In this document: piece by piece, positions 42,873 to 58,675 of the stretch
How positions within the stretch are numbered: the first letter of the stretch is position 1
Layout of the letters: each line of letters begins with the position of its first letter
Assembly (NCBI GenBank): GCA_002951815.1
Contig: CP019454.1
Span: forward strand, 1,178,001-1,242,000
DNA from: Sulfobacillus thermotolerans
GTDB lineage: Bacteria; Bacillota; Sulfobacillia; Sulfobacillales; Sulfobacillaceae
Reading direction: 5' to 3'
Length of the DNA stretch: 64,000 nt
Program-made: the position numbers and the translations under genes
Notes under the pieces: generated by a model
Told to the model about the DNA's origin: nothing
Databases searched by the model: none
The model's input: only the letters and a program-made list of their open reading frames with translations

Positions 42873-43340
42873 ATGGCGCAAGATCGGTTGGCGATTATTG
42901 TGTCAAAAGGCAGCTTGGATATGGCTTATCCGCCGTTTATTTTGGCAACGGCAGCGGCGGCCTTGGATATGGAGTGCATGTTGTTTTTTACGTTTTGGGG
43001 TCTCGATGTTATCAATAAAGAGAAAATTGACAATTTGACGGTGTCTATTGCAGGAAATCCTGGCATGCCGGCAATGGCCCGTGTAGCTGGAGTTGTCCCC
43101 TTTGGTACTAAGGTGGTGTCGTCTATGATGCGAAGCCAATTTGCTAGCTCCAATGTCATGTCTATTCGGGAGTTTCTTACAGAATCGGCAGAATTGGGGG
43201 TCCATTTGGTGGCGTGTCAAATGTCTATGGATGTTTTAGGTGTGAAGCGCGAGGATTTAGTGCCTGAAGTAGAGGATGTGGTGGGAGCGGCAACCTTTCT
43301 AGATTTTGCTCGCGACGCCAAAATCAGTCTCTTCGTTTGA
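42873..43340 (+). CDS. dsrE: DsrE-family sulfur carrier protein (DsrE2-like), first gene of the sHdr cluster
   Basis: A 155-residue DsrE/F-like protein. The start LAIIVSKGSLDMAYPPFILA and the block ALDMECMLFFTFWGLDVI fit the DsrE2/peroxiredoxin-like branch. The conserved Cys near the C-terminus (VACQMSMDVLGV) is the likely persulfide carrier. Such proteins pass sulfane sulfur between TusA and the oxidation machinery. GGGGGGAG lies about 6 nt before the ATG. It heads the operon, and hdrC1 starts 22 bp after its stop. Confidence 0.8.
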   Translation: MAQDRLAIIVSKGSLDMAYPPFILATAAAALDMECMLFFTFWGLDVINKEKIDNLTVSIAGNPGMPAMARVAGVVPFGTKVVSSMMRSQFASSNVMSIREFLTESAELGVHLVACQMSMDVLGVKREDLVPEVEDVVGAATFLDFARDAKISLFV

Positions 43341-43362
43341 GTGCTGCGAAGGAGGTGGGTTA

Positions 43363-44049
43363 ATGCCGTCAAATCTATATAAAGAAGTCGCGCTAGAGGA
43401 AAAACAGAGACTATTCGACGAGGTTAAGGCGGATCCCCGGTTTGAGACTTACTTATACGGGTGCTACGAATGCGGAATTTGTGTTGCTGCTTGCCCTTCG
43501 GCGCGTTTTTATGACTTTTCCCCACGCAAGATTACTCAAACGTTGGCGCGCGAAGATGTGGAATTGTTTTACGAACAGCTTAATGACGATATTTGGAATT
43601 GTTCGCAATGCTTTTCTTGCAATCGATGTCCGCGCCAAAACAGCCCTGGTGGTCTGATCACGGTCATGCGCGAAGTTGCCGTAAATAATGGGCTGCGTTC
43701 CATGAAAGAAGCGCTCGCGGGATACACCCGAATTATCTACAAGATCATGACGACAGGTACTCAGGTGTCGCCAGACATGTTGCAAGAGGATGCGTTTCCT
43801 GATTGGGGACCCCAAGTGAAAAAAGTTTCGGAAAATTTGGACGTGTGGCGCCGGGCGTTGCCGCCGGAAACGCTGCATACGACTGGGCTCTCGTGGCAGG
43901 TGGAAGAACGAACCATGCACGAGTTATACGCGATTTGGAAAATGACGGGGACTTTGGACATGATTAGCCTAGTTGATGAAGGGCTGCACGACATTATGGA
44001 GGAAATTATGGATGATGCGCTGGAAGAGAGCGGATTGCAGGTTGACTAG
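43363..44049 (+). CDS. hdrC1: sHdrC1-like [4Fe-4S] subunit
   Basis: A 228-residue iron-sulfur protein with two cluster motifs: CYECGICVAACP (about 34-45) and CSQCFSCNRCP (about 84-94). It matches HdrC of sulfur-oxidiser sHdr complexes. It should relay electrons between sHdrA and sHdrB1. The frame opens at 43306, but AAGGAGGTG lies 5 nt before the ATG at 43363. Confidence 0.85.
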   Translation: MPSNLYKEVALEEKQRLFDEVKADPRFETYLYGCYECGICVAACPSARFYDFSPRKITQTLAREDVELFYEQLNDDIWNCSQCFSCNRCPRQNSPGGLITVMREVAVNNGLRSMKEALAGYTRIIYKIMTTGTQVSPDMLQEDAFPDWGPQVKKVSENLDVWRRALPPETLHTTGLSWQVEERTMHELYAIWKMTGTLDMISLVDEGLHDIMEEIMDDALEESGLQVD

Positions 44050-44083: not shown

Positions 44084-45283
44084 ATGGAACCGTTGAATTT
44101 GCCGATCACTGGTACCAAGGTTGAGACGTCCAAAGTCTTTGAGAGAGACCCTGAGACCGTACGCGACGAGGACTTGCGTGAAGCCATATGGGAATTAGGT
44201 CGCGAAGGGGAGTGGATTGTTCAACCTGTCCCGGAGCCATATTACCTAGCACCGACGAAGTTTGGGAGAATGAAAAAGATTCCGTTAGAACACACGTGGC
44301 ACCATAAAAGCTGTGGTCAATGCGGACACATTCCCGGCTACTCCACATCGATTTTCTGGCTCAACCGCATATTGGGCTATGATTACTTTGACCCCAGGGA
44401 CCAAACATCTTGTACTGCATGGAACTATTATGCCTCCGCAACATCGAATCAGGCAGCTCAGGCCGCCGTTGCCATGCGGAACTTTTCTGCCGCTTATGAG
44501 ACTGGCTACTATCCTCTTATCCATTGTGGCACGAGTTTTGGCCATTACAAAGAAGTGCGTCATGAATTGGTGCACGACGCCAAGCTACGCCGTCAGGTCC
44601 GTGCCATCATTGAGAAATTAGGACGTCCATTTGTGATGCCCGAAGAAATTGTCCATTACAGTGAATGGATGTATGCAGTGCGTGATGAATTGGCCGCACG
44701 GGTTCAGTATGATTTATCCCCAATTACCGCAACGGTGCACCCCGCTTGCCATTATTACAAATTGCAAAGCGGCGATGCTATTTATGATCCCGAAATTTAT
44801 GGCGGGCAACGCACCGCCGCCGTCACGGGAGTGGTGCAGACTTTAGGGGCACAAGTTGCGGACTATTCGACTTGGTATGATTGCTGTGGCTTTGGATTTC
44901 GGCACATTCTTGTTCAACGAGATTTTACTCGAAGCTTTGCTACATTGCGAAAAATTGAGGTGATGAAGCAAGAGGCTAACCCTGATGTGGTCTTGACGCA
45001 CGACACAGGTTGCGTCACGTCGTTGGATAAAAGTCAATTTGCGGCGAAAGCCCATGACCGGCAGGTTGGCGTGCCGGTTATGTCAGAATCGCAATTTGCT
45101 GCGTTGGCGCTGGGGGCACATCCCTTTCGGGTTTGTCAACTCCACTGGCATTCAGTGGATTATCGACCCTTGCTGAGGAAAATGGGGATCGATGTGGACC
45201 GCGCATGGGCTGAGTTTGAAGACGATGTTAGCAAAATTAAGACCGGTGAACTGGATTATGTGACATGGGAACATGTGCTCTAA
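44084..45283 (+). CDS. hdrB1: sHdrB1-like subunit with CCG-type cluster motifs
   Basis: A 399-residue protein. Cysteine blocks seen are HKSCGQCGHIPG, HCGTSFGHYK, HPACHYYK, YDCCGFGFRH, and HDTGC, corresponding to the two CCG-type sites of HdrB, which bind non-cubane iron-sulfur clusters. In sHdr complexes this subunit is thought to handle the sulfur substrate carried on LbpA. GAGGAGGG lies 6 nt before the ATG. Confidence 0.82.
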   Translation: MEPLNLPITGTKVETSKVFERDPETVRDEDLREAIWELGREGEWIVQPVPEPYYLAPTKFGRMKKIPLEHTWHHKSCGQCGHIPGYSTSIFWLNRILGYDYFDPRDQTSCTAWNYYASATSNQAAQAAVAMRNFSAAYETGYYPLIHCGTSFGHYKEVRHELVHDAKLRRQVRAIIEKLGRPFVMPEEIVHYSEWMYAVRDELAARVQYDLSPITATVHPACHYYKLQSGDAIYDPEIYGGQRTAAVTGVVQTLGAQVADYSTWYDCCGFGFRHILVQRDFTRSFATLRKIEVMKQEANPDVVLTHDTGCVTSLDKSQFAAKAHDRQVGVPVMSESQFAALALGAHPFRVCQLHWHSVDYRPLLRKMGIDVDRAWAEFEDDVSKIKTGELDYVTWEHVL

Positions 45284-45317: not shown

Positions 45318-46160
45318 ATGGGGAACACGGAAACAGTATTAATTGTCGGGGCGGGCCCTGGGGGTATGGAGGCGGCGCGGGCCGTGGCCGACCTGGGTAA
45401 AAGAGCCATTTTGGTGGAGGCCAAAGGGGAGATAGGCGGTACGCCGTATTCCTCCTACGCGACATTAACGCCGGACTTGCAAGAAACGGAAGAAGCCATG
45501 GGCCATATTGTACGGGGCATTCATCAAAATCCTGCAATTGATTTGCGCCTCAATACACGGGTTGTCAAAAGCGAAGGAGAAGTTGGAGCGTTTCATGTCA
45601 CTTTAGAAAGTGAGGATTCGACACAAACCGTGGTGGAAGTAGGGTCCATCATTGTTGCCACGGGCTTTCAGCACTTTGATCCCGGCCGTGAAACGCAGAT
45701 GTACGGTTATTACGAATATGACGATGTGATTACCTTGGTCGATGCGGAGCGGATGTTTAAGAGTGGTGCCATCGTTCGGCCATCAAATGGGGAGGCGCCT
45801 GAACGAGTCGCCTTCATTCAATGTGTTGGATCGCGCGATCGTCAAATTGGCAACCAGTATTGTTCTAAGGTCTGTTGTGGCATTGCCTCCAAACAGTCCA
45901 TCGAAATTAAGCGCATGTTGCCGAACGCTAAGGTTTTCATTTTCTACATCGATATGCGGATGTACGGATTTTGGGAGGACCAAATCTATTGGAAGGCGCA
46001 GGAAGAATACAAAGTGAATTATGTCCGTGGCATTGTGACCGAAGTCATTCGTAAGGGAGATAAGCTGCTCATTAAAGGCGAAGATACCACGATGGGGCGG
46101 CCTATGGAAGTGTTGATGGACATGGTCATCTTATCGGTTGGCATGGAGCCCTCCAAGGGT
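45318..46160 (+). pseudogene. hdrA: sHdrA, 5' part, interrupted by transposon insertion
   Basis: The first 281 codons of a flavin-binding HdrA. It has the FAD loop VGAGPGGMEAARAVA and a cysteine cluster (CVGSRDRQIGNQYCSKVCC) for a [4Fe-4S] site, and is intact until MEPSKG. From codon 282 the frame runs into the mobile element and ends 54 element-encoded codons later at 46325. The missing C-terminal part (TLEMAKIFN... to the VAGAAAGPKDIEDTVSMGG FAD motif) resumes at 49955. Joined at the duplicated CCAAGGG, the two parts give an uninterrupted 354-residue protein of normal sHdrA size. The truncated product lacks the distal FAD-binding motif and is probably inactive. Confidence 0.9.
46153..46159. 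repeat. Target-site duplication, left copy (CCAAGGG)
   Basis: Seven bases directly before the TGTCGA end of the element, identical to 49948-49954. Confidence 0.85.
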
Positions 46161-46214
46161 GTCGATTCCCACGTTATTGAGCCGTTAGAGGCCCTTCTTT
46201 TCTCATGTTGTCGT

Positions 46215-46241
46215 GCCGCCCCGGGGCGGCAAATTTTTTTT
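46215..46241 (+). terminator. Terminator just inside the left end of the element
   Basis: GCCGCCCCGGGGCGGC palindrome followed by AAA and a run of eight T. It faces transcripts entering from hdrA and should stop them within the element. Confidence 0.75.
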
Positions 46242-46327
46242 CGGGGAATTCGACCGCCTCGCTTGTCTTTCGCGCGCCGTTGTGCTGTGGTAGTAAGCAA
46301 AGACGGTGACCACGGAAGGAGATGATA

Positions 46328-46371
46328 AGAAAACAGGCGTAAACGTCTTGACCAGACCCCGCCTGTTTTCT
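46328..46371 (+). promoter_or_regulatory. Hairpin directly upstream of the first element gene
   Basis: AGAAAACAGGC (46328-46338) pairs with GCCTGTTTTCT (46361-46371), ending 7 nt before the ATG at 46379. It lies where a ribosome site would be, so it could limit expression or act as a second terminator. Confidence 0.5.
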
Positions 46372-46378
46372 GTAGCGT

Positions 46379-47083
46379 ATGGATACTCCACGCATGATGA
46401 TTATACCATCGGCCGAGCGTGTGTTGCCGCTCTATGCGCAGTATTTAGCCGACACATTGGAGACGGTCTGGCGGCCGTGTGATCGGTGCCAGCGGCGTCG
46501 CACGTTGAATCTCGGCCACGGCCGCTGGGTGGAATGTGCCCCCGGGCAAAGCATCGTCTTGATCTTGCGCCATGTGCGTTGCCGTCGCTGTCATACGGTG
46601 GAAACCGTTTTTCCGCCGTGGCTCCTACCCAATGAATCCTTGACGGTGGAAATGATGGAAAGTATGTTGACGGCCATTGAAATCCGCGGGGAATCTTTGG
46701 AGACCGTGGCCGCGGCGCATCAGGTCTCCGTGGAGCGGGTGCAAGCGCTGTGGCATCGATGGCGGGCGGTGCTGCCGGAGTGGCCCTATCAAGTGGAACA
46801 GGAGGCCGCGGTCTCGACCGCCGCCCCGTTGGTGGATACCCAAACCTGGCAGCCTCCGGCCACGGCGCGGAGCGCGAGCTGGGCGTGGCTCCAAGTCGCG
46901 TGGCAGGCCCTCGCCCTGCTCTGGGGTCTCGCGCCTCCTCCCAGTGGATGGGTATTTTGGCGCACCGTGGCGCCGGAGTGCATGCCGGCGGCCCCCATTT
47001 CCGCGCACTGTCACCTCGGGCAGCGATTACGCCAGCCAGGGGGGCGAGCGCCACCCACATTGCCCCTGATACAGTGCGGATAA
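46379..47083 (+). CDS. Element-encoded zinc-ribbon/HTH protein (DUF6431-like)
   Basis: A 234-residue protein. CDRC and CRRC pairs (about residues 34-37 and 63-66) form a zinc ribbon, followed by a helix-turn-helix-like stretch (ESLETVAAAHQVSVERVQALWHRW). The C-terminal half is A/P/W-rich and unrecognised. It resembles small zinc-ribbon proteins (DUF6431 type) encoded with DDE transposases in Firmicutes; I am not certain of the family. No clear ribosome site is seen. It probably binds DNA or regulates transposition. Confidence 0.55.
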   Translation: MDTPRMMIIPSAERVLPLYAQYLADTLETVWRPCDRCQRRRTLNLGHGRWVECAPGQSIVLILRHVRCRRCHTVETVFPPWLLPNESLTVEMMESMLTAIEIRGESLETVAAAHQVSVERVQALWHRWRAVLPEWPYQVEQEAAVSTAAPLVDTQTWQPPATARSASWAWLQVAWQALALLWGLAPPPSGWVFWRTVAPECMPAAPISAHCHLGQRLRQPGGRAPPTLPLIQCG

Positions 47084-47128
47084 ATCCGATACGCTCAAGA
47101 GAGCCCCAAGAAAGGAGTGTGAAGGCTC

Positions 47129-48517
47129 TTGACGGATGAGGAACGGGAGGCCTGGGCGTTGTTCCGCTATCGCCTGATTAGCCCCCTCTTAGATCCGGCG
47201 GCCTCGGCGGCGGATCGCCGGGATTTTTGGCAATATCTGCACGATCATCCCCCGACCAATCCCTTTGGGCACCCGTGGGTGCCCTCGACGCGGGTTATTC
47301 GTCATTATTGTCAGCGTTACCGGGAGGGCGGCTTCGACGCATTACGCCCGGCACGCCGGGCGGATTGGGGATCCCGGCGCGCTATTCCTCCCGATTTGTG
47401 GGCGCAAGCCGTCGCCTTCAAACAGGAAGTGCCGGAACGCAGTGCCACGCAGGTGCTGGCGTTATTGACGGCTTGGTGTGCCTCGGTTGCGGGGGACCCC
47501 GCGGCGGTCGCCCGCATCAGTCCGAGCACGCTCTACCGCCACTGGCACCGCGCGGGCATTACGCGGCGTCGGCTCCATGCCGCGGCTCCCAAGCGATACC
47601 GCCGGTGGGAGGCTCCGGCTCCCGGGGCGCTCTGGCAAACGGACGTGATGAACGGACCCTACCTGCCCGATCCGACGGCCGACGATCCCGACCGCACACG
47701 CGCGACCTATTGCCTCATGCTGCTGGACGATTATTCCCGGCGCATTGTGGCGGGGCGCTTTGTCTGGCATGCCGACAGCGAGACCTTAGAACAACTGTTG
47801 GCGGAAGCGTGGCAACGCTGGGGCGTCCCCGAAAAACTCTACACCGACAACGGCGGCATTTATGTCAGCCACCGATTAGAAATCGTGCTCGCCCGGCTCG
47901 CCGTCCGCTTAACCCATACGCCGCCGTACACGCCCTCCGGGAAAGGAAAACAAGAGCGGATTTGGGGACATATCCAATCCTCATTCTTACCCGAATTGCG
48001 GGTGCAACCCGCCGAGTCCCTCGGGCAATTGAACACGTGGTTTAGTGCCTGGTGTGACGAACACTATCACCGGCGCGTGCACGGGGAGACAGGGGAAACC
48101 CCGTTGCAGCGGTGGGGAACGGGCGGAGTCCATCGGGCCCTCTCCTGGGAAGCCCTGCGCGCGGCCTTGCGCCAGCAAGTCGAACGGGTCGTGGACAAAA
48201 CGGGGCAAGTGCACTGGCGGGGACAGCGGTGGATCGTCCCGGAAGGCCTGTGGCAAGTCAAAGTGCAGTTGCGCTTTACCCAGGACACGGCGGACACAGT
48301 GGAAGTGTGGTTTGAAGACACGTATTATGGCCCTGCCGTCCGCGCGGACCAGCACGATCCGGGCCACCCGGACCGACCTGTGCCCCCCGCGGCCTCCACG
48401 GCGGGACCCGGTATCAGTTATTTGGAAGTCTTAGCCGCCCAACAAGCGCAGCGCCGGGCACACGGGATTGCGTATCATCAGCTGTCTCCGGCAGGAAAGG
48501 AGCCGTCATCCTCATGA
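47129..48517 (+). CDS. DDE (rve integrase fold) transposase, Tn552 p480/TniA type
   Basis: 462 residues. The N-terminal region has HTH character (STRVIRHYCQRYREGGFDAL, TLYRHWHRAGITRRR). The catalytic core has the three acidic residues: Asp in LWQTDVMNGPYL, Asp in KLYTDNGGIYVS, and Glu in SGKGKQERIWGH. A mu-type beta-barrel-like C-terminus follows (VDKTGQVHWRGQRWIVPEG). The start is TTG at 47129 after AAAGGAG. It overlaps the ATPase gene by 4 bp, a sign of coupled translation. Size and partner match Tn552-family transposases, not IS21. Confidence 0.88.
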   Translation: MTDEEREAWALFRYRLISPLLDPAASAADRRDFWQYLHDHPPTNPFGHPWVPSTRVIRHYCQRYREGGFDALRPARRADWGSRRAIPPDLWAQAVAFKQEVPERSATQVLALLTAWCASVAGDPAAVARISPSTLYRHWHRAGITRRRLHAAAPKRYRRWEAPAPGALWQTDVMNGPYLPDPTADDPDRTRATYCLMLLDDYSRRIVAGRFVWHADSETLEQLLAEAWQRWGVPEKLYTDNGGIYVSHRLEIVLARLAVRLTHTPPYTPSGKGKQERIWGHIQSSFLPELRVQPAESLGQLNTWFSAWCDEHYHRRVHGETGETPLQRWGTGGVHRALSWEALRAALRQQVERVVDKTGQVHWRGQRWIVPEGLWQVKVQLRFTQDTADTVEVWFEDTYYGPAVRADQHDPGHPDRPVPPAASTAGPGISYLEVLAAQQAQRRAHGIAYHQLSPAGKEPSSS

Positions 48518-49332
48518 TGTGGTGGGAATATTTTGGCGCGCAGCAGGCCCCGTTTGGCCGCAATTTATCGGCGGAGACGCTCTATCTCTCGCCGCCCTTA
48601 GCGGAATGCCAGGCCCGGCTGCACGCCGTGATTCGGGATCGGGGCGTGCTTGCCGTGACCGGCGAGTCGGGCGCCGGGAAGACGACGGCATTGCGCGCGA
48701 CCGTCGCCGCGCTACCGCCCAGTCAGTTTCTCCCGCTCTATCTTCCGGTACAAGAAGACTGGACTCCCCGCGTGATGTACCGGGCGGTCGCGTATGAATT
48801 GGGTTTGCTGCCCAGTGGGCAGGCGCTCGAGACCGAACGGACGGTGCGGCAAACGCTCTGGGCCTTAGCGACCCAGCAAAATCGCTTGCCCCTCTTACTT
48901 TTGGATGAGGCGCATCTCTGTTCCCCGCATTTACTGCAGTCCTTGCGCCAGTTGCTGAATTTCTCCATGGACAGTACCGCGCCGCTCGTCCTGATCTTGG
49001 CCGGACATACCGAACTCCGGCGCAAGCTGTCTCTCCGCCCCTTGGAAGCGCTGCGCCAGCGGATTACGGTCGCCTATCATGTGCGCGCGTTAACCGCGGA
49101 GGAGACCATCGTGTATGTGACCCATCATCTACATCAGGTGGCGATTGACCGCCCCGTCTTTACCGACAGTGCCTTGCAAGCCGGGGTGGAATGGTCCCAG
49201 GGCCTCCCCCGCCGCATTAACACGTGGGCCACCGCCTGCTTGCTGGCGGCGTACAGTGGACAACACCCCGTGATTGATGACGAGGTCGTCGCTACAGCGC
49301 AGGCCGAATTGCAATGGGCGGGGGCGTTGTAA
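48514..49332 (+). CDS. AAA ATPase transposition protein, Tn552 p271/TniB type
   Basis: 272 residues with Walker A TGESGAGKTTALRATVAA (about 47-64), Walker B LPLLLLDEAHLC, and sensor/arginine region ILAGHTELRRKL. It belongs to the ExeA/TniB/IstB-like AAA group that activates DDE transposases and selects target DNA. AAAGGAG precedes two in-frame ATGs (48514, 48517). It overlaps the transposase stop. Confidence 0.88.
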   Translation: MMWWEYFGAQQAPFGRNLSAETLYLSPPLAECQARLHAVIRDRGVLAVTGESGAGKTTALRATVAALPPSQFLPLYLPVQEDWTPRVMYRAVAYELGLLPSGQALETERTVRQTLWALATQQNRLPLLLLDEAHLCSPHLLQSLRQLLNFSMDSTAPLVLILAGHTELRRKLSLRPLEALRQRITVAYHVRALTAEETIVYVTHHLHQVAIDRPVFTDSALQAGVEWSQGLPRRINTWATACLLAAYSGQHPVIDDEVVATAQAELQWAGAL

Positions 49333-49352
49333 TCACCCAGAAAAGGAGCGCA

Positions 49353-49841
49353 ATGAGAATGAGAACCGTCAAACAAATGACGTGCTACCGCGTCCAACCT
49401 CTCCGGCAATTCCCGGGGGTCATGGTGTGGACCCCCGAGCACCAGCGGGCTGACCGGGTGCAGGATTTCCTCGAATTTGCGGTGAGCCAAGGACGCCCCC
49501 TGCGGCGCGTGCGCCGCACGGGCCGCATTCTCGCGGAGGCGGCGACCTGGATCTACTACACCCACACCGATTGGAGCGCCATGACGTTGGCCCGCTGGGG
49601 GGACTATCTCACCACAATCGTCGCGGCGGGGCCGCCCATGGATGCGGCGCGATTATTTCCCGTAGTCGATGCGCTCTATGAATTTTATGCGTTTTGGTGG
49701 TGGATCGATCCGCCATTTCTCCCGTATCAGCCCTGGCCCCAGCAGGAACGCCGTCGTCATCAATGGGTGCAGCATTGGTGGAGTTACCGCGCACATATCC
49801 AAGACTTCCCCGGGGACTTTCTCGATCCACTGCCATTTTAA
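49353..49841 (+). CDS. Element-encoded protein of unknown function
   Basis: A 162-residue protein rich in Trp, Tyr and Arg, with no domain I recognise. AAAAGGAG lies 4 nt before the ATG at 49353 and 10 nt before the next ATG at 49359, so either may be used; the frame is open from 49314 without a site. It follows the ATPase gene by 20 bp and is the last gene before the element's right-end hairpin. It could be an accessory transposition or cargo protein. Confidence 0.55.
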   Translation: MRMRTVKQMTCYRVQPLRQFPGVMVWTPEHQRADRVQDFLEFAVSQGRPLRRVRRTGRILAEAATWIYYTHTDWSAMTLARWGDYLTTIVAAGPPMDAARLFPVVDALYEFYAFWWWIDPPFLPYQPWPQQERRRHQWVQHWWSYRAHIQDFPGDFLDPLPF

Positions 49842-49842
49842 C

Positions 49843-49892
49843 GGGCAGAGTAGAGGGGTCGATCACCCTTGATCGGCCCCTCTACTCTGCCC
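49843..49892. terminator. Long hairpin near the right end of the element
   Basis: A 23-bp stem with a 4-nt loop (CCCT). Arms begin GGGCAGAGTAGAGGGG and end CCCCTCTACTCTGCCC with a single G·T pair. It should end element transcripts. It also blocks read-through into the hdrA remnant. Confidence 0.8.
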
Positions 49893-49947
49893 AAAGGGCG
49901 GTCAGCTAACGTGAGAAAACTGTGGACGCCGATCCTGAGACTCGACA

Positions 49948-49954
49948 CCAAGGG
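49948..49954. repeat. Target-site duplication, right copy (CCAAGGG)
   Basis: Directly follows the TCGACA end of the element and is identical to 46153-46159. Confidence 0.85.
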
Positions 49955-50177
49955 TACGTTGGAAATGGCAAAGATTTTTAATCTTCCCCGCGAAAGTCAT
50001 GGGTTTCTGCAAACGGTAGGAGGCCCCTTAGATACCGTTACCACGCCTATCCCAGGAATCTTTGTGGCGGGCGCTGCGGCTGGGCCCAAGGATATTGAGG
50101 ATACCGTTTCAATGGGAGGCGCGGCAGCTGCCAAGGCTGTGGGGATGTTAAACCGCATGGCGTTAGAGGAGGTGTGA
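49955..50177 (+). pseudogene. hdrA: sHdrA, 3' part, displaced by the transposon
   Basis: The last 73 codons of hdrA, in frame with the 5' part once the element and one duplication copy are removed. They read TLEMAKIFNLP... and include the flavin-binding motif GIFVAGAAAGPKDIEDTVSM. A restart codon upstream (TTG at 49869) lies in element sequence and has no good ribosome site. Its stop overlaps the start of the next gene (TGATG), showing that the original operon was tightly packed. Confidence 0.88.
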
Positions 50178-50884
50178 TGAGCGCTCTAGTTATTGATGCG
50201 GAAGCGGTTGGAGATTTTTTAGATAAGGCAGAAGGTTTTGTGACGGCGGAAGATATCGAACGCTGGAATAGGGTCATGACGGTGCGTTTAGGCGATGCTG
50301 CTGATGTTCTTGCCGACGACATGCGCAATCTTTTGGTGGTCCCGGGCACGAGACGGTTGAATGAGGGGGGCTATCAGCTCTGGACGCAACACAAGGAGAC
50401 GTTAAAACACGGCGTTATTCACACGCCCGGGAATATGGCAGCCTACTTGACGTCGATATCAGCTCCCCCTTGGCTATGGGAATGGACGACATTTTGGCTG
50501 GCGGCCTTGTGGCCTGACGATTTCGTCTGGTGGTCACGGTGGATGTTTCTTCCCTCTAGTCGAACCGGGGCGGTGCCGCTTGTGCTCGTCGATCCGGAGT
50601 GTCTTGTGGCCGATCCCCAGACGCTCTATGGGCAAATTGTGCAGGCTGGACATTTTATGAATCATGTGATGGAGAGTTTGCGACGTCTGCCTGATATTGA
50701 TCCGCGTTATCGGCATTTAACAGCATTCGCCATGGTGTATGCGGTGTACCTCTTTACAATGACCTCGTGGCGGCTTACCGAAGAGTTTACCCGCGTGCTC
50801 CCTCCATTTCCCCGCGTGGTTGCGAGTCTCTTGGGTATTCAGAGATGGGAGGAATATAGCATTGCAAAAGGCAAAAGCAATTGA
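50177..50884 (+). CDS. Conserved-position hypothetical protein of the sHdr cluster
   Basis: A 235-residue protein without cysteine clusters, rich in Trp and aromatic residues (SAPPWLWEWTTFWLAALWP). The sHdr operons of other sulfur oxidisers carry a 'hypothetical' gene at this same place after hdrA, so it is probably the equivalent. It appears soluble, with at most weak hydrophobic segments. The ATG overlaps the hdrA stop, and AGAGGAGGTG lies 4 nt upstream. Role unknown. Confidence 0.65.
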   Translation: MSALVIDAEAVGDFLDKAEGFVTAEDIERWNRVMTVRLGDAADVLADDMRNLLVVPGTRRLNEGGYQLWTQHKETLKHGVIHTPGNMAAYLTSISAPPWLWEWTTFWLAALWPDDFVWWSRWMFLPSSRTGAVPLVLVDPECLVADPQTLYGQIVQAGHFMNHVMESLRRLPDIDPRYRHLTAFAMVYAVYLFTMTSWRLTEEFTRVLPPFPRVVASLLGIQRWEEYSIAKGKSN

Positions 50885-52142
50885 ATTAGACATTGCAGTA
50901 GTCGATGGTGTTGAGCTTAACGGTTCATGGAACCGCATGTTTGAGCCGCGCGTGATTTCTGAATATGACTTGTCGGTTTTAGATAGCATCACGCAAATTC
51001 CTGGCGCTGAGTCGTTAGGTTATTGCTATCAGTGTGGAAAGTGTACGGGTGTGTGTCCGGTGGACACGGTAGGAGATTATTCCCCGCGTAAAGTTTTTCG
51101 CCGCACGCAACTCGGTATTTCTCTCATCGATTCTCCCGATCTGTGGCTGTGCACAACATGCCGAAATTGTCTGCGTGTGTGTCCCAAAGAGGTCAACATG
51201 ATTAATATCATGCCTGCTGTCCGGGAACAAGCTGTCTTAGAAGGTAAGGCGCCGGATGAATTGCTAACGGCATTTGAAAACACGGCGCGTTATGGCAATC
51301 CCATTGGCGAGTCGCCTCGTAAACGCGCTGACTGGACAAAGAATGCTGGAGTAGCGGTTCCGATTATGTCCCAGCGCAAAGCGCCGGTTGATGTCTTGTG
51401 GTTTGTGGAATGTTACCCGTCCTATCATCCTCGAGGCAAAGAGGCTTCGTCGGCGTTGGCTCGCGTGTTTGACGCTTTGAGCGTCGACTATGGGATTTTG
51501 GGCACCGAAGAAAAATGCGCGGGAGATTCTCAGCGGATGGCGGGAGAGCGCGGATTGTTTGAAATGTTGGCCGAGCACAACATCAAGATGTTGTCAAAGT
51601 ACACGTTTAATCAGCTTGTGGTGACTGACCCGCATGCATACAATGCGTTTCTTCATGAGTATCCAAAAATGGGGGGCGAGTGGCCAGTCCAACACTACAC
51701 GCAATTTTTAGCGGAACGATTGAACCAGGTGCATTTTGTGAAGGCGCTTAACAAACGGGTCACCTTTCATGATCCATGTTATTTGGGACGTCATAACGGG
51801 GAATACGAGGCACCGCGAGCGTTGTTGGCAGCCTTGCCGGGCATTGACCTCGTCGAAATGGGGCATTGTCGAGAGACGTCCTATTGCTGTGGTGGCGGTG
51901 GGGGCGGCATGTGGATGGACAGCTTTACGCGAGACTACGCCAGCGAGCGACTGTCGGAACGGCGCGTGAAAGAGGCCATTGAATATGGTGCAGAAATTTT
52001 AGCCGTCAGCTGCCCCTATGAAGTACCGCGATTTGAGGATGCGGTGAAGTCAACCGGGCATGATGGAGAGTTGCAAGTTATGGATATTGCCGAACTTATG
52101 GCGTATTGCATGGGGCTGAACGAGGCTTTGGTCCTGCACTGA
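50862..52142 (+). CDS. hdrB3: sHdrB3-like fused HdrC-HdrB iron-sulfur protein
   Basis: A 426-residue protein. The N-terminal part has two [4Fe-4S] motifs (CYQCGKCTGVCPVDT and CTTCRNCLRVCPKE). The C-terminal part has two CCG-type domains (DPCYLGRHNGEYEAPR and the RETSYCCGGGGGGMWM block). This HdrC+HdrB fusion next to etfBA is the mark of the type II sHdr cluster. GGGAGG lies 9 nt before a TTG at 50862, which I prefer to a GTG at 50820. It overlaps the previous gene by 23 bp. Confidence 0.83.
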   Translation: MQKAKAIELDIAVVDGVELNGSWNRMFEPRVISEYDLSVLDSITQIPGAESLGYCYQCGKCTGVCPVDTVGDYSPRKVFRRTQLGISLIDSPDLWLCTTCRNCLRVCPKEVNMINIMPAVREQAVLEGKAPDELLTAFENTARYGNPIGESPRKRADWTKNAGVAVPIMSQRKAPVDVLWFVECYPSYHPRGKEASSALARVFDALSVDYGILGTEEKCAGDSQRMAGERGLFEMLAEHNIKMLSKYTFNQLVVTDPHAYNAFLHEYPKMGGEWPVQHYTQFLAERLNQVHFVKALNKRVTFHDPCYLGRHNGEYEAPRALLAALPGIDLVEMGHCRETSYCCGGGGGGMWMDSFTRDYASERLSERRVKEAIEYGAEILAVSCPYEVPRFEDAVKSTGHDGELQVMDIAELMAYCMGLNEALVLH

Positions 52143-52172: not shown

Positions 52173-52943
52173 ATGCGATTAGCAGTGCTTTTGAAGACGG
52201 TTCCAGATTTGGTAGAAGAGTTGGCCCTCGATGAAGACGCGCGGACCTTACTGTTTGACGAGATGAGTTATGTCCCAAGCGAATGGGATGACCAAGCTCT
52301 AGAAGAGGCTTTGATTATCAAAGAAGAGTCTGGCGCGGAGGTCACGGTGATTGCGGTCGACACGGGAGATGTGGACACGATGCTGTTCACCGCGTTGGCG
52401 AAAGGCGCTGATTATGCGGTAAAAATCGTAGGAGATTTTGATGCGGCCATGAGTAATTGGCAAAAGGCGCGCGTAGTAGCGGACTATCTTGGGCGAGGGG
52501 ATTTTGACGCAGTGCTCTCCGGAGTTCAGGCCATTGATGACGTCGATGGCCAGTTGCCAGGGCTTGTTGCGGGGTTTTTAGGTTGGCCGCACGCGTCCGT
52601 AATCACAGAGGTTCGCGTCGCGGGCGGGTCGCATCTTCAGCTGCGACAAGAATATGCGGGAGGGCTTGTTGCGGAATTAGAGACGGTGACGCCGATTGTG
52701 GTAGGGGTGCAGGCGGCGCGTAAACCTCCGCGATATGCGTCCGTGGCTAAGGTCAGGCAAGTGGCTAAGTCAGCCACGATTGACGAGGTCGAAGCGGATG
52801 TTGCTGAGGCGAGACTGGCCGGCGTGGAATATGTTCGCCCCGTCGCCGCTGGTCATGCAGAAATGATTGAAGGAGATATCGACGAAGTGGTCGATCGAAT
52901 TGTGGCCATTTTGGAAGAGCGCAACTTACTAAGGAGGGCGTAA
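52173..52943 (+). CDS. etfB: Electron transfer flavoprotein beta subunit
   Basis: 256 residues. The family start MRLAVLLKTVPD, ALEEALIIKEESGAEVTVIA, and GVQAIDDVDGQLPGLVAGFLGWP are typical EtfB blocks. The protein should form the FAD/AMP-containing heterodimer with EtfA and accept electrons from the sHdr complex. AAAGGAGG lies about 7 nt before the ATG. Confidence 0.9.
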   Translation: MRLAVLLKTVPDLVEELALDEDARTLLFDEMSYVPSEWDDQALEEALIIKEESGAEVTVIAVDTGDVDTMLFTALAKGADYAVKIVGDFDAAMSNWQKARVVADYLGRGDFDAVLSGVQAIDDVDGQLPGLVAGFLGWPHASVITEVRVAGGSHLQLRQEYAGGLVAELETVTPIVVGVQAARKPPRYASVAKVRQVAKSATIDEVEADVAEARLAGVEYVRPVAAGHAEMIEGDIDEVVDRIVAILEERNLLRRA

Positions 52944-52945
52944 GA

Positions 52946-53896
52946 ATGGGACCTATTCTCATTGTGTTAGAAAATGGTGCGGCGGGGGTCACTGAGGCGA
53001 CAAAGGAATGCGTCAACAAGGCCAAGTCGTTGGCGGCTCAGTTGGGAACGACAACCGTTGCGGTGGGATTTGGCAAACAGCATGTCAGTGACTTGCGGCG
53101 ACTGGCTGTGACGAAGGTTGTCATTGCCAGTGGGGGGACCATGGATCTGTATAATCCGGATGCTTACGAGAAGGTATTAGCGGAGATTTTTGGGAATGTC
53201 AAACCCTATTTAACGTTGATAGCCAACACAACGATGGGTTTAGATTTAGGTGCTGGGTTAGCAGGACGTACACAGACGCCCTTGATTGCGTATGGCATTG
53301 ACATCGAAGAGCAAGATGGGCGATTAACAGCCATCAGTCAAGTGTTTGCAGGCAAACTCTTGGCCCGGGTTCCCATCCCAGAGGATGGTGCAATCGTGAC
53401 TGTAATTCCTGGGTCGTGGCCCGCGGACAATGAAGCGGGAGATCCGGAGATTGAAGAATGGACGGCCCAAGACTCGGAAGCTATGCGGGTCCTTCGCGTG
53501 GTTGAACCCGAACAGAGTGATATTGACATTACGAAAGCGGATATTTTGGTGAGCGTGGGCCGTGGCATTGAGGGACCAGACAATTTGCCCTTGGCGGAAG
53601 ACTTGGCTGAGGCTCTAGGTGGTGTTGTCAGCTGTTCACGGCCTGTGGTCGATGCCGGTTGGCTGCCTAAAGCCCGCCAAGTGGGAAAGTCTGGGCAGAC
53701 GGTCAAACCCAAACTCTATTTGGCGTGTGGAATCAGCGGAGCTCCCGAACATCTCCAAGGCATGCGCGATGCCGACTTGATCATTGCCATTAACACGGAT
53801 GAGTCGGCTTCGATTATGGATATTGCGCATTTTGGAACGACTGCCGATATGTTGGAGTTGATGCCGGCGCTAGCCGAACGTCTTAAAGGGGGGTGA
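52946..53896 (+). CDS. etfA: Electron transfer flavoprotein alpha subunit
   Basis: 316 residues. The C-terminal FAD domain is complete: VSVGRGIEGPDNL, SRPVVDAGWLPKARQVGKSG, YLACGISGAPEHLQGM, and AINTDESASIMDIAHFG. It begins 2 bp after the etfB stop. It is the partner of EtfB; its likely oxidant is the membrane protein encoded next. Confidence 0.92.
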   Translation: MGPILIVLENGAAGVTEATKECVNKAKSLAAQLGTTTVAVGFGKQHVSDLRRLAVTKVVIASGGTMDLYNPDAYEKVLAEIFGNVKPYLTLIANTTMGLDLGAGLAGRTQTPLIAYGIDIEEQDGRLTAISQVFAGKLLARVPIPEDGAIVTVIPGSWPADNEAGDPEIEEWTAQDSEAMRVLRVVEPEQSDIDITKADILVSVGRGIEGPDNLPLAEDLAEALGGVVSCSRPVVDAGWLPKARQVGKSGQTVKPKLYLACGISGAPEHLQGMRDADLIIAINTDESASIMDIAHFGTTADMLELMPALAERLKGG

Positions 53897-53900
53897 GGGA

Positions 53901-55895
53901 ATGGGCCGTGATTTGCTCATGGCGCTGACCATTGTAATGTTCTTGGGAACTGGAGGTTTTTTTATCTCGCGTATGGCCCCGATTATCGGGGTCATGCGCC
54001 TTGCGCGACCCACTGATCGTCTTGACAACGTTGGTCAGCGGCTGGGATTTATGATGCGGCAAGTGTTTGCGCATCAACGGCTGATGCGCATGAAACTCTC
54101 CGGCGTGTTGCATTTCTTCATATTTAGTGGGTTTGTGATTTTGTTTATTGATATTGTCGATGCCATTGGCCAAGTATTTGTCCCGGGATTCAACATCGGA
54201 TCGGCGTTGGATTTTGTGGTCGATTTGTTTGTAACGCTGGTATTGATTGGCATTATATTAGCCGTCTATCAACGTGCGGTGTTGAAACCGGAACGTTATC
54301 ACGGGTCGGATGAGCGTGACGGCTATATCATTTTGGGCATGATTGCCCTCATTATGATTGGGATTGTGCTCCACGAATCCTTCTATCCGTTTGCCGCGCC
54401 TGTGTTGTTTCATGTCCATCCAAGACTTGACCCATGGGGCTTCTTAGGGTATTCGGTGGCGCAACTGTGGATTCGTACCGGGCTGGCGATGCATCCCGTG
54501 ATTGCAGAAGTGGGTTACATTCTGGGATATCTCCTTGATATTGGGATGGTCTTTGCCTTTTTGGCATATCTCCCCACCTCGAAACACTTGCATATCTTCT
54601 TGGCAGTTCCCAGTATCTTTTTGCACAAGACGCGTCCCCATGGGGAGTTAGTGCCGCCTGTGGATCCCGATGCGGGCATGGCCATTCGCACGGTCAAGGA
54701 TATGAACTGGAAGGATGTCTTGGACCTTTTTACCTGTACCGAATGCGGGCGATGTCAAGCTGTATGTCCTGCCCATGCCGCCGGACAGCCCCTCTCTCCA
54801 AAGATGGTCATCATTGAATTACGGGATGCGGTGCGCCGAGAGCTTGCAGGGGGCGAACCGCTGCCGCTCGCAGGCGGCGTTGTGAGTGCAGAAGAATTGT
54901 GGTCTTGCACGACGTGTGGCGCTTGTCAAGAAGCCTGTCCAGTATTTATCGAGCATGTGCCCAAGATTGCCGGGTTGCGGGCAGCGCTGCTTGAGGATGG
55001 CGAAGTGGATAAAAGTACGCAAAAGGTCTTGGTGGGATGGGACCGTCAAGGCAATTCCTTTAATCAACCGCAGCGCAAGCGTCCCGCTTGGGCTAAGGGG
55101 TTGGATTTTACGATTAAGGATGCGCGCAAAGAACCCGTCGATTGGCTATGGTTTGTGGGTGACTTTGCTTCTTATGACCCGAGGATGCAGCATCTCTCAC
55201 GGTTGGTCGCACGGCTTCTCCACCGCGCAGGCATTGATTTTGGCATTCTGTATGAGGGGGAAGTGAACTCGGGCAATGATGCGTTGCGGATGGGTGAATA
55301 TGGATTGTTTGAAACGCTAGCGCAAAAAAATTTGGCAGCCCTCGAGAAAGCGCAGTTTAATCAAGTCTTTACGACGGACCCGCATTCGTTTAATGCGCTG
55401 CGCAATGAGTACGGTAAATTAGGATTTGACCGTCCAGTACGTCACTATACTCAAGCCTTTCTGGATTTAATTGAACAAGGTCGGTTACGTCCAGAGCCTT
55501 TGAATCTGCGCGTCACGTATCATGACCCTTGTTATTTAGGTCGCTGGAATCGGGTGTTTGATGCACCACGCCAACTTCTTGAAAAGATGGGGGTGGAATT
55601 GGTGGAAATGCCTCATCACGGGGCCAATAGCTTCTGTTGTGGTGCTGGGGGAGGCCGGATTTGGATGGAAGAGGTTGGTATGACAGACAGACCCGCGAAT
55701 ATTCGTATGCGTGAAGCTTTGACATTGCAAGACGTCAATCATTTTGTGGTGGCTTGTCCGAAAGATATGTCAATGTTTACGGCAGCAGTGCAGAGTACAG
55801 GCAGTGAAGAGCGTATGAAGGTGATTGACGTCGCGGAGCTATTGGCGCAGGCGGTGGGATTAGATGAACCGCTAGACCGGGTTATGGCCGAATAA
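53901..55895 (+). CDS. Membrane HdrD/GlpC-like iron-sulfur protein with NarI-like cytochrome b domain
   Basis: A 664-residue protein. The first about 250 residues contain five to six helices with conserved His, like the NarI/DsrM cytochrome b module. Then come two [4Fe-4S] motifs, CTECGRCQAVCP and CTTCGACQEACP, and two CCG domains (DPCYLGRWNRVFDAPR and FCCGAGGGRIWMEE). This layout is that of ETF-linked quinone reductases such as EtfQO-like HdrD proteins. It would pass electrons from ETF to menaquinone. The ATG is 4 bp after the etfA stop. Confidence 0.85.
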   Translation: MGRDLLMALTIVMFLGTGGFFISRMAPIIGVMRLARPTDRLDNVGQRLGFMMRQVFAHQRLMRMKLSGVLHFFIFSGFVILFIDIVDAIGQVFVPGFNIGSALDFVVDLFVTLVLIGIILAVYQRAVLKPERYHGSDERDGYIILGMIALIMIGIVLHESFYPFAAPVLFHVHPRLDPWGFLGYSVAQLWIRTGLAMHPVIAEVGYILGYLLDIGMVFAFLAYLPTSKHLHIFLAVPSIFLHKTRPHGELVPPVDPDAGMAIRTVKDMNWKDVLDLFTCTECGRCQAVCPAHAAGQPLSPKMVIIELRDAVRRELAGGEPLPLAGGVVSAEELWSCTTCGACQEACPVFIEHVPKIAGLRAALLEDGEVDKSTQKVLVGWDRQGNSFNQPQRKRPAWAKGLDFTIKDARKEPVDWLWFVGDFASYDPRMQHLSRLVARLLHRAGIDFGILYEGEVNSGNDALRMGEYGLFETLAQKNLAALEKAQFNQVFTTDPHSFNALRNEYGKLGFDRPVRHYTQAFLDLIEQGRLRPEPLNLRVTYHDPCYLGRWNRVFDAPRQLLEKMGVELVEMPHHGANSFCCGAGGGRIWMEEVGMTDRPANIRMREALTLQDVNHFVVACPKDMSMFTAAVQSTGSEERMKVIDVAELLAQAVGLDEPLDRVMAE

Positions 55896-55945
55896 CGAGC
55901 TCATGATGGATGAAGGTATTGATAACGCATAAGGAGGAGTTAGGG

Positions 55946-56386
55946 GTGTCAGACGTACACGGCTGTAATCTTCCAGATGATTTATATTATTGGATCGAAA
56001 AGCACACATGGGCGAAACCGCAGGATGACGGAACCATATTGGTGGGGTTAACGGATGTGGCTCAAAACATGGCGGGGAAAATTATTGTCGTGAATCTGCG
56101 GTCGCGCGGTAAAACGCTTGCCCGTGGGAAAAGTGGTGGGACGCTGGAGAGTGGAAAATGGGTGGGAGCCATTCCGACGCCTGTGGCGGGGGAGGTTCTC
56201 GAGGTGAATGAGACGGTCCGGTCTCAGCCTCAGTTGGTTAATGACGATCCTTATGGCGCGGGATGGTTGCTAAAAATTAAGCCGTCAAATTGGGATGACG
56301 ATGCTAAGCTTCTGGCAGTTGGGTCAGACGGAATCGCCCAGTACCAGGCAAAACTCGAACAAGACGGAATCCAATGCGCCAAGTAG
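55946..56386 (+). CDS. lbpA1: Lipoate-binding protein of the sHdr system, copy 1
   Basis: A 146-residue GcvH-like protein. The lipoyl attachment region reads TLESGKWVGAIPTP, with Lys at about 71; in LbpA proteins the ESxKW motif replaces the ESVKA of GcvH. The C-terminus ends IQCAK with a Cys close to the end. LbpA carries lipoate as the sulfur-handling cofactor for sHdr. AAGGAGG lies 8 nt before a GTG at 55946, so the start is later than the first in-frame ATG (55910). Confidence 0.85.
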   Translation: MSDVHGCNLPDDLYYWIEKHTWAKPQDDGTILVGLTDVAQNMAGKIIVVNLRSRGKTLARGKSGGTLESGKWVGAIPTPVAGEVLEVNETVRSQPQLVNDDPYGAGWLLKIKPSNWDDDAKLLAVGSDGIAQYQAKLEQDGIQCAK

Positions 56387-56436
56387 CAGCGTGTAGATCC
56401 CGTCCGAAGCGTTGGGCACAGACAAAGGGGGGGAGT

Positions 56437-56913
56437 ATGGCTCAGGTTTTTGCCTGCGAGTTTCCAGACGTGTATTGGTTTGACGTGGAACGGGATGTTT
56501 GGGTAATGCCTCAGCCATCTGGACAGCTGCGCATGGGCATGACGGATCCCGCTCAAACTCGAGCAGGCAAGGTGTTGCATGTGCGTGCTAAAACGGGCAA
56601 AACCGTTGTGGAAGGGCAAAATCTAGCGACCATTGAGTCGGCGAAATGGGTGGGGCCGTTTCCGGCACCGTGTGAGGGTCTGGTTGTCGCGGTGAATCCA
56701 ATTGTGATGACTGACCCCAATGAGATCAATCGCGATCCTTATGGGCAAGGATGGATTGTCGAACTGCAACCGTCCTCAGATGTTTGGAGGAGTACTTTGA
56801 TGACGGGCCCAAAGGCCATCGATGCTTACCGTGAAAAACTTCGGGCGGAAGGTTTAACGTGCATGCGGTGTGTGCCGCCGTCCGATGATCTTAGTCCAGA
56901 GAGTGAGGAATAG
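56437..56913 (+). CDS. lbpA2: Lipoate-binding protein of the sHdr system, copy 2
   Basis: A 158-residue second GcvH-like protein with lipoyl motif TIESAKWVGPFPAP (Lys at about 70). It shares the overall plan of copy 1 but only part of its sequence. Near the C-terminus it has LTCMRC, again Cys-bearing. AGGGGGGGAG lies directly before the ATG at 56437; the frame opens at 56374. It is followed 2 bp later by the ligase gene. Confidence 0.85.
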   Translation: MAQVFACEFPDVYWFDVERDVWVMPQPSGQLRMGMTDPAQTRAGKVLHVRAKTGKTVVEGQNLATIESAKWVGPFPAPCEGLVVAVNPIVMTDPNEINRDPYGQGWIVELQPSSDVWRSTLMTGPKAIDAYREKLRAEGLTCMRCVPPSDDLSPESEE

Positions 56914-56915
56914 CG

Positions 56916-58025
56916 GTGCGCTACGTGAATTTAGGAGTTGTAGACGCACGGTGGTCACAGGCCGTATATCATGCTTTAGCGCACCGTATGAAGAGCAACG
57001 ACGAGCCGACTCTGGTGACTGTGAGTCCCAATCGCCCGTATGTGTGTGTGGGCTACCACCAATTGGCGAGTCGGGAAATTGATCGCGTTTACTGTGAACA
57101 GCATAACATTCCTGTCGGACGACGTTGGGTTGGGGGTGGAGCCGTATACTTAGATCAGGGCCAAGTATTTTGGCACTTAATTTTGCCAAAAGTATCCGGG
57201 ACTATTGACCAGCTATATCGGCGCGTTTTATCGGTACCGATTGCAACGTATCAGGCTATGGGCATTGAAGCGACATTTCGACCCGTCAACGATATCGTTG
57301 TGGGACCTCGAAAAATTGGAGGCACAGGGGCTTCGACGATAGGGATTGCGACTGTTGTCGTGGGAAGTCTGATGTGGGATTTCAACATGTCCCTGATGGC
57401 ACGGGTATTGCGGGTTCCTTCAGAAAAGTTTCGGGATAAAATGGTCAAGAGCCTTGAGGATTACATGACGACGATTTCACGAGAATTACGTAGCGTACCC
57501 GATAGATCTCGTGTTACCGACGACCTCGTCGAGCGTTTTGCGGCCCTCTTGGGAGAACCTGTTCATTCCAGCGTATTGACGGCAGGCGAGGTTCAAGAGA
57601 TGGAACGCTTAGCGGACGAATTGTTTAGCCCGACATTTGTTTATGGAGCAGAACATGGGTTGATAGAGGCGGGTGTGAAAATCCGTTCAGGCGTCTATGT
57701 GCATGAAGGGGTCATTAAAGCACCGGGCGGGTTGGTGCGATTCATTTATCGTGACAATGAAGGTGTATTTGAGCAAGTGAGTCTGTCTGGAGACTTTTTT
57801 TTGACACCTTGGAACAGTCCGGCACTTGCTGAGTGGGAAAAGAGTTTCGAGGGACAACCGATTAATCATGAGACAATTCAGCGCAAAGCCCAGGAATTAT
57901 TTGATGCTGTTAGCATTTCTGGGGTGCGACCAGAGCATATCGTGGCTTGTTTCCTTGAGGCTCAAAAACGCCGAGTGACGGATGATCCGTCCAATTCAGT
58001 GACATTAAAAGGGGGATTATTATGA
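56916..58025 (+). CDS. lplA: Lipoate-protein ligase dedicated to LbpA
   Basis: A 369-residue ligase of the LplA family with both large and small domains, the sLpl(AB)-type. The lipoate/ATP site GRRWVGGGAVYLD (usual RRxxGGGxV) and GPRKIGGTGAS with the catalytic Lys are intact. It should attach lipoate to the two LbpA proteins just upstream. The start is GTG at 56916, 2 bp after lbpA2, with a GAGTGAGGA site. It overlaps tusA by 4 bp. Confidence 0.87.
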   Translation: MRYVNLGVVDARWSQAVYHALAHRMKSNDEPTLVTVSPNRPYVCVGYHQLASREIDRVYCEQHNIPVGRRWVGGGAVYLDQGQVFWHLILPKVSGTIDQLYRRVLSVPIATYQAMGIEATFRPVNDIVVGPRKIGGTGASTIGIATVVVGSLMWDFNMSLMARVLRVPSEKFRDKMVKSLEDYMTTISRELRSVPDRSRVTDDLVERFAALLGEPVHSSVLTAGEVQEMERLADELFSPTFVYGAEHGLIEAGVKIRSGVYVHEGVIKAPGGLVRFIYRDNEGVFEQVSLSGDFFLTPWNSPALAEWEKSFEGQPINHETIQRKAQELFDAVSISGVRPEHIVACFLEAQKRRVTDDPSNSVTLKGGLL

Positions 58026-58297: not shown

Positions 58298-58675
58298 ATG
58301 TCTGATGTGAAAAAGTACTTATACATTCTCACGACAGGGCCAGAAGTTGCCTACCGGGCAGCCTCGCCATTTTTTCTGGCAACGACCGCAGCTTTGATGG
58401 ACCATGAGGTGTCAATGGTTTTCACGATACGGGGGACCGCTTTACTAAAGAAAGGAGTCGCTGAAGAGTTAACCGTCAAAGAAGGCGGAGATGGCGCCAA
58501 ACTGCAGTTTTTTGTAGACCAGGCACGTGATGCCGGCGTTAAATTTTATGTCTGCGCACCGAGTTTGGACTTAAATGACTGCACATTAGACGACCTTATC
58601 GAGAATGAAGGGGTTGTTGGGGGCAGTGCGGTCAACGAAATGGCCTTGGAATCGGATGTCGTGATTACCTTTTAA
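58298..58675 (+). CDS. DsrE-family sulfur relay protein, second copy in the cluster
   Basis: A 125-residue DsrE-like protein: YRAASPFFLATTAALMDHE and FYVCAPSLDLNDCTLDDL are recognisable, with two Cys near residue 90-100 as candidate sulfur carriers. AAAAGGGGG precedes the ATG. It closes the sHdr cluster and is distinct from the dsrE at 42873, which is longer. Confidence 0.8.
   Translation: MSDVKKYLYILTTGPEVAYRAASPFFLATTAALMDHEVSMVFTIRGTALLKKGVAEELTVKEGGDGAKLQFFVDQARDAGVKFYVCAPSLDLNDCTLDDLIENEGVVGGSAVNEMALESDVVITF

Follow-up and report, generated by a model that had tools for sequence, protein, structure and literature searches.

A probably recent transposon insertion in the type II shdrA gene of Sulfobacillus thermotolerans Kr1

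Introduction

In the type strain Sulfobacillus thermotolerans Kr1T, a mining bacterium whose genome was assembled as one contig of 3,317,203 bp, the two parts of an hdrA gene are found 3.8 kb apart, on either side of a DNA segment with the ends of a transposon. This arrangement raises the questions of whether a genuine hdrA gene has been interrupted, whether this happened recently and whether the strain has lost a route of sulfur oxidation as a result. A sequence-only reading of the locus had proposed a recent insertion that should disable the sHdr system of the organism, unless a second hdrA copy exists. Here, these proposals are examined in a window of 64,000 nucleotides (G000:C1:1178001-1242000), to which all positions without a contig label refer, in the genome as a whole and in related genomes.

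Type I sHdr systems are recognized by a syntenic shdrC1B1AHC2B2 arrangement with lbpA, and type II systems are defined by a fusion of HdrC2 and HdrB2, termed B3 (PMC11582611). In Sulfobacillus, Justice et al. named Hdr clusters I and II and described cluster II as a single-copy cluster shared by every Sulfobacillus genome available at the time (PMC4378227). Hdr is absent from the main text of the Kr1 genome paper (PMC6803676).

Results

All genes and hairpins of the window described below are read on the forward strand. The interrupted gene belongs to a cluster that begins with a DsrE-family sulfur carrier (42873..43340; Pfam DrsE_2, 1.5e-44), sHdrC1 (43306..44049; HdrC models, 2e-25) and sHdrB1 (44084..45283; Pfam CCG domain). 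The two parts of shdrA are followed by an sHdr-associated hypothetical protein in the sHdrH position with no Pfam or NCBIfam match (50174..50884), sHdrB3, which is a fused HdrC2-HdrB2 protein with Fer4 and CCG domains (50820..52142), etfB and etfA (52173..53896; profile matches), and a membrane Fe-S/CCG oxidoreductase, the counterpart of the long hdrC in Justice et al. (53901..55895; PMC4378227). Two LbpA (GcvH-like) genes with a lipoate-protein ligase (55910..58025) and a further DsrE-family protein (58298..58675; Pfam DsrE, 5.5e-15), read here as the cluster end, complete the arrangement. The cluster thus combines shdrC1B1A-H-B3 and etfAB in one syntenic unit of type II, with an interrupted A and an H that is recognized solely from its position. 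Its order, C1-B1-A-H-B3-etfB-etfA-membrane Fe-S protein with two LbpA, lipoate ligase and DsrE, is the same as in Sulfobacillus Hdr cluster II. It differs from the type II system (shdrC1B1AHB3 with etfAB) in its transposon-split shdrA, and all remaining genes are open.

The 5' part of type II shdrA (45318..46159) encodes residues 1-281, among which are the FAD GxGxxG motif and the Cys motif CVGSRD...YCSKVCC, and is 73-87% identical to intact orthologues. The 3' part (49955..50177) encodes the 73 C-terminal residues, including PGIFVAGAAAGPKDIED, in a separate frame. Between them lies a transposon of 3,788 bp (46160..49947) with TGTCGA/TCGACA ends, flanked by a left (46153..46159) and a right copy (49948..49954) of the target duplication CCAAGGG; these features are exact to the base as first described. 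When the transposon and one CCAAGGG are deleted in silico, MEPSKG is joined to TLEMAKIFN in frame, as predicted, and an open hdrA frame that has 354 codons and ends at 50177 is restored, the junction of which reads ...SVGMEPSKG-TLEMAKIFN.... A second genomic copy of the element stops at the same bases, with one shared base on each side. As the G before and the C after the element are common to both copies, the length of the target duplication depends on the reading (7, 6 or 5 bp); the predicted empty site in hdrA is identical in all three cases. A single site in the window combines TGT...ACA with inverted ends of 6 bp and flanking repeats of 7 bp, where shuffles give 0.17 on average, and the insertion stands far beyond chance because of the near-identical second copy and the 21 relatives with an uninterrupted gene.

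These relatives were identified by searching the joined HdrA protein against 34 genomes of the family. All 21 full-length type II hdrA orthologues, which are 73-87% identical, are uninterrupted and stop-free. It had been suggested to compare hdrA of related strains at the predicted empty site, and the residues there are indeed the same or nearly so: most of the 21 orthologues carry SVGMEPSKGT at the junction and the rest a near variant. The gene is intact in seven of seven other genomes of the genus that were searched; the closest relative, G017, has an intact hdrA (87% identical), and the element is absent from the hdrA site in the relatives with an orthologue that were searched. Among the genomes searched, the split of hdrA is private to Kr1. 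An exact scan of genome_contigs, a collection that may omit the window's own and near genomes, found no empty-site sequence of S. thermotolerans. The intact orthologues and the exact boundaries uphold the initial view of a transposon insertion in a genuine hdrA.

As it stands, the N-terminal product consists of 281 native residues and a 54-residue tail encoded by the element. The joined HdrA matches the solved structure PDB 6tjr, sHdrA of Hyphomicrobium denitrificans, over its full length (E 8.8e-81, residues 6-345). Compared with this protein, Kr1 HdrA lacks the last 73 residues and with them the conserved PG(I/V)FVAG...GP stretch, presumably the second FAD-contact motif, given the flavoprotein fold. 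Because this C-terminal FAD-motif stretch is absent, the truncated HdrA would be non-functional. Just inside the left end of the transposon, at about 55 bases, a terminator-like hairpin (GCCGCCCC/GGGGCGGC) with a T-run (46214..46239) may stop incoming hdr transcription; the number of such sites in the region does not exceed that in shuffles. At least partial polarity on shdrB3-etfBA is plausible.

The transposon encodes a DUF6431-like CxxC zinc/HTH protein (46379..47083; Pfam DUF6431 3.5e-5, 24.0 bits against a cut-off of 26.6), which is also the first gene in related elements, a DDE transposase with an rve core (47129..48517; PF00665, 1.9e-13), an AAA ATPase (48514..49332; AAA_22, PF13401, 1.2e-22) and a fourth small ORF with no family in Pfam or NCBIfam (49356..49841). 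A 23-bp near-perfect hairpin with no T-run (49843..49892; -49 kcal/mol, z -9) lies downstream of the last ORF. The transposase is nearest to IS481, a family whose elements have TGT...ACA type ends, and shares its DDE core, but membership was rejected at 172.5 bits against the NCBIfam cut-off of 224; unlike IS481 elements, the Kr1 element carries two or three extra genes, including those for the AAA ATPase and the DUF6431-like protein. A DDE transposase with an AAA ATPase is also found in Tn7/Tn5053-like and IS21-like elements, whereas no TnsA, TniQ or resolvase was found in the Kr1 element, and its ATPase matches AAA_22 rather than IstB. Accordingly, IS21 membership (57.5 bits, with the cut-off at 160) and Tn7-like membership, for which neither TnsA nor TniQ had a match in Pfam or NCBIfam, were both rejected. 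Target duplications are 5 bp in Tn7/Tn5053 and 6 bp in the DUF6431-DDE-AAA group of Firmicutes. The Kr1 element shares the gene order and TGT...ACA ends of this group, with a duplication of 6 or 7 bp depending on the placement of its ends. No name for the group was found in the libraries and literature searched, and papers on DUF6431 or on IS481-plus-ATPase transposons yielded nothing relevant.

A search of 398 genomes of the phylum detected related transposases in 74, and the copies examined in detail repeat the gene order small zinc protein, transposase, ATPase. These related elements have TGT...ACA ends; of the 12 sites whose ends could be defined, 10 show exact 6-bp duplications (ATAAAT, CTGCAT, CTACCC, CTTTAT, TTCAGG, CTTTTC, AGAAGT, TGATAC, CCAAAG and ACATGG), compared with the 7 bp that can be read in Kr1. 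An 89% identical element is present in G017 at a site different from hdrA, and the element was not found in any of 72,556 plasmids. Elements of this kind form a widespread Firmicutes group (L074-L092, among them L078:5041-8368 and L082:4521-7618). A recurrent in-frame TGA in DUF6431 homologues proved to be an ordinary gene end. In six of six Sulfobacillus-type left ends (L005, L074, L075, L117, L118 and window 46159), TGT is preceded by G, which could belong to the element or reflect a target preference. The DUF6431-like genes of the transposon relatives at L094 and L095, from two genera of the family, align identically and are 63% identical to that of Kr1; the identity suggests a recent transfer.

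The second copy in Kr1 (G000:C1:132181-135966; L013:7182-10967) shows no substitutions over 3.8 kb and two 1-bp gaps, which may be 454 assembly errors. Its DUF6431-like gene is frameshifted, and it has no target duplication. On its left the copy cuts an SQR-like gene, of which the C-terminal half adjoins it; the other half is not located on the far side of the copy, and elsewhere in the genome the surviving half matched only diverged paralogues. A deletion or rearrangement beside the copy after its insertion would explain both the missing half and the missing duplication. A “Tn7” (BXT84_00850-00865) has been named at the end of an 83-kb plasmid-like region of this genome (PMC6803676). Judged by gene count and place, the second copy appears to be this “Tn7,” and the element may therefore have arrived with the region.

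Since the second copy carries no base substitutions, the transposition must be recent. The earlier observation that neither hdrA half has decayed agrees with this, as no stops are present and the C-terminal part exhibits no excess of amino-acid change relative to other genomes; dS against relatives is saturated and thus provides no date. For sequencing, the strain was cultivated with Fe2+, yeast extract and 400 mM Zn, and no reduced-sulfur substrate is listed (PMC6803676). Such growth would relax selection on hdrA.

A whole-genome search bore out the caveat of a second hdrA copy. An intact gene of 348 aa, 44-46% identical to the interrupted one, is located at 238.1-239.1 kb of the contig, within a cluster at 235-243 kb. 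The order of this cluster, C1-B1-A-H-C2-B2-LbpA, is that of a type I system, with H assigned by position only, and a thioredoxin-like gene, DsrE genes, a second LbpA and a lipoate ligase lie nearby. Six GcvH/LbpA-like genes were found in the genome (window 55910-56913; G000:C1:1126507, 1497620, 235182 and 241971), and each of the two sHdr clusters has an LbpA pair with a lipoate ligase close by. The genome also contains a sulfur oxygenase reductase (SOR) gene. All type strains, including that of S. thermotolerans, are listed as growing on elemental sulfur (Table 3, PMC8489842). As a complete type I cluster is present and Kr1T is tabulated as growing on sulfur, the pathway has not been lost: judging by the published record, sulfur oxidation survives the insertion, and the expectation of a disabled sHdr system in the organism has to be given up in view of the type I sHdr-LbpA cluster, SOR and the reported growth.

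Discussion

The locus is very probably the result of a recent insertion of a DDE/AAA transposon into the type II shdrA of Kr1, which duplicated CCAAGGG and inactivated this HdrA. In this scenario, the transposon would have entered shdrA of the type II cluster and the truncated protein, deprived of the C-terminal FAD-motif stretch, would have lost its function, with an at least partly polar effect on shdrB3-etfBA. Sulfur oxidation would continue via type I sHdr-LbpA and SOR, and the insertion may be tolerated owing to the cultivation of the strain on ferrous iron and yeast extract.

A different matter is whether every cell carries the insertion. It is possible, if rather unlikely, that it is polymorphic, gained or enriched in part of the culture on iron and zinc, and that the population retains a functional type II hdrA. 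The lack of decay in either hdrA half, the two substitution-free element copies, a sequencing culture with no listed reduced-sulfur substrate and a type strain listed as growing on sulfur are all in line with such a mixture; the consensus assembly, however, has the filled site only, and no empty-site sequence of the species occurs in the searched collections, of which genome_contigs may omit its own and near genomes. A wrong join via the two element copies, or an hdrA without a real interruption, is highly improbable. The assembly was built from 454 reads averaging 694 bases, at a reported 23x, with gaps closed by Sanger sequencing of amplicons, and the 3.8-kb two-copy repeat exceeds the read length; an artefact could also be suspected from the absence of a target duplication at the second copy. 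A random mis-join, however, would not be expected to leave two hdrA halves in frame with a matching duplication, and independent copies in relatives show the same kind of ends and duplications.

Least probable of all is a reversible switch, by which the element would control the sulfur-oxidation operon through phase variation. The insertion had been called reversible-looking on account of its precise duplication and intact frame, but these are the normal mark of any fresh insertion with a target duplication, and nothing points to excision. Moreover, no site-specific recombinase, invertible segment or dedicated target was found, the second Kr1 copy and the copy of the relative occupy unrelated sites, and the hdrA site is free of the element in relatives.

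The insertion of a transposon into a gene is an ordinary kind of event, and it is its place that is informative: the one Hdr cluster reported throughout the genus has been hit in a type strain. For the sulfur metabolism inferred from the Kr1 genome, this means that type II sHdr is broken and type I is intact. The chances are about even that the knock-out of the type II sHdr cluster in Kr1T is natural and fixed and that the strain nevertheless grows on elemental sulfur. If so, type II sHdr would be dispensable in the presence of type I sHdr-LbpA and SOR, and the two types would be separable in one organism. Kr1T also offers a ready-made natural mutant for asking what role each sHdr type plays.
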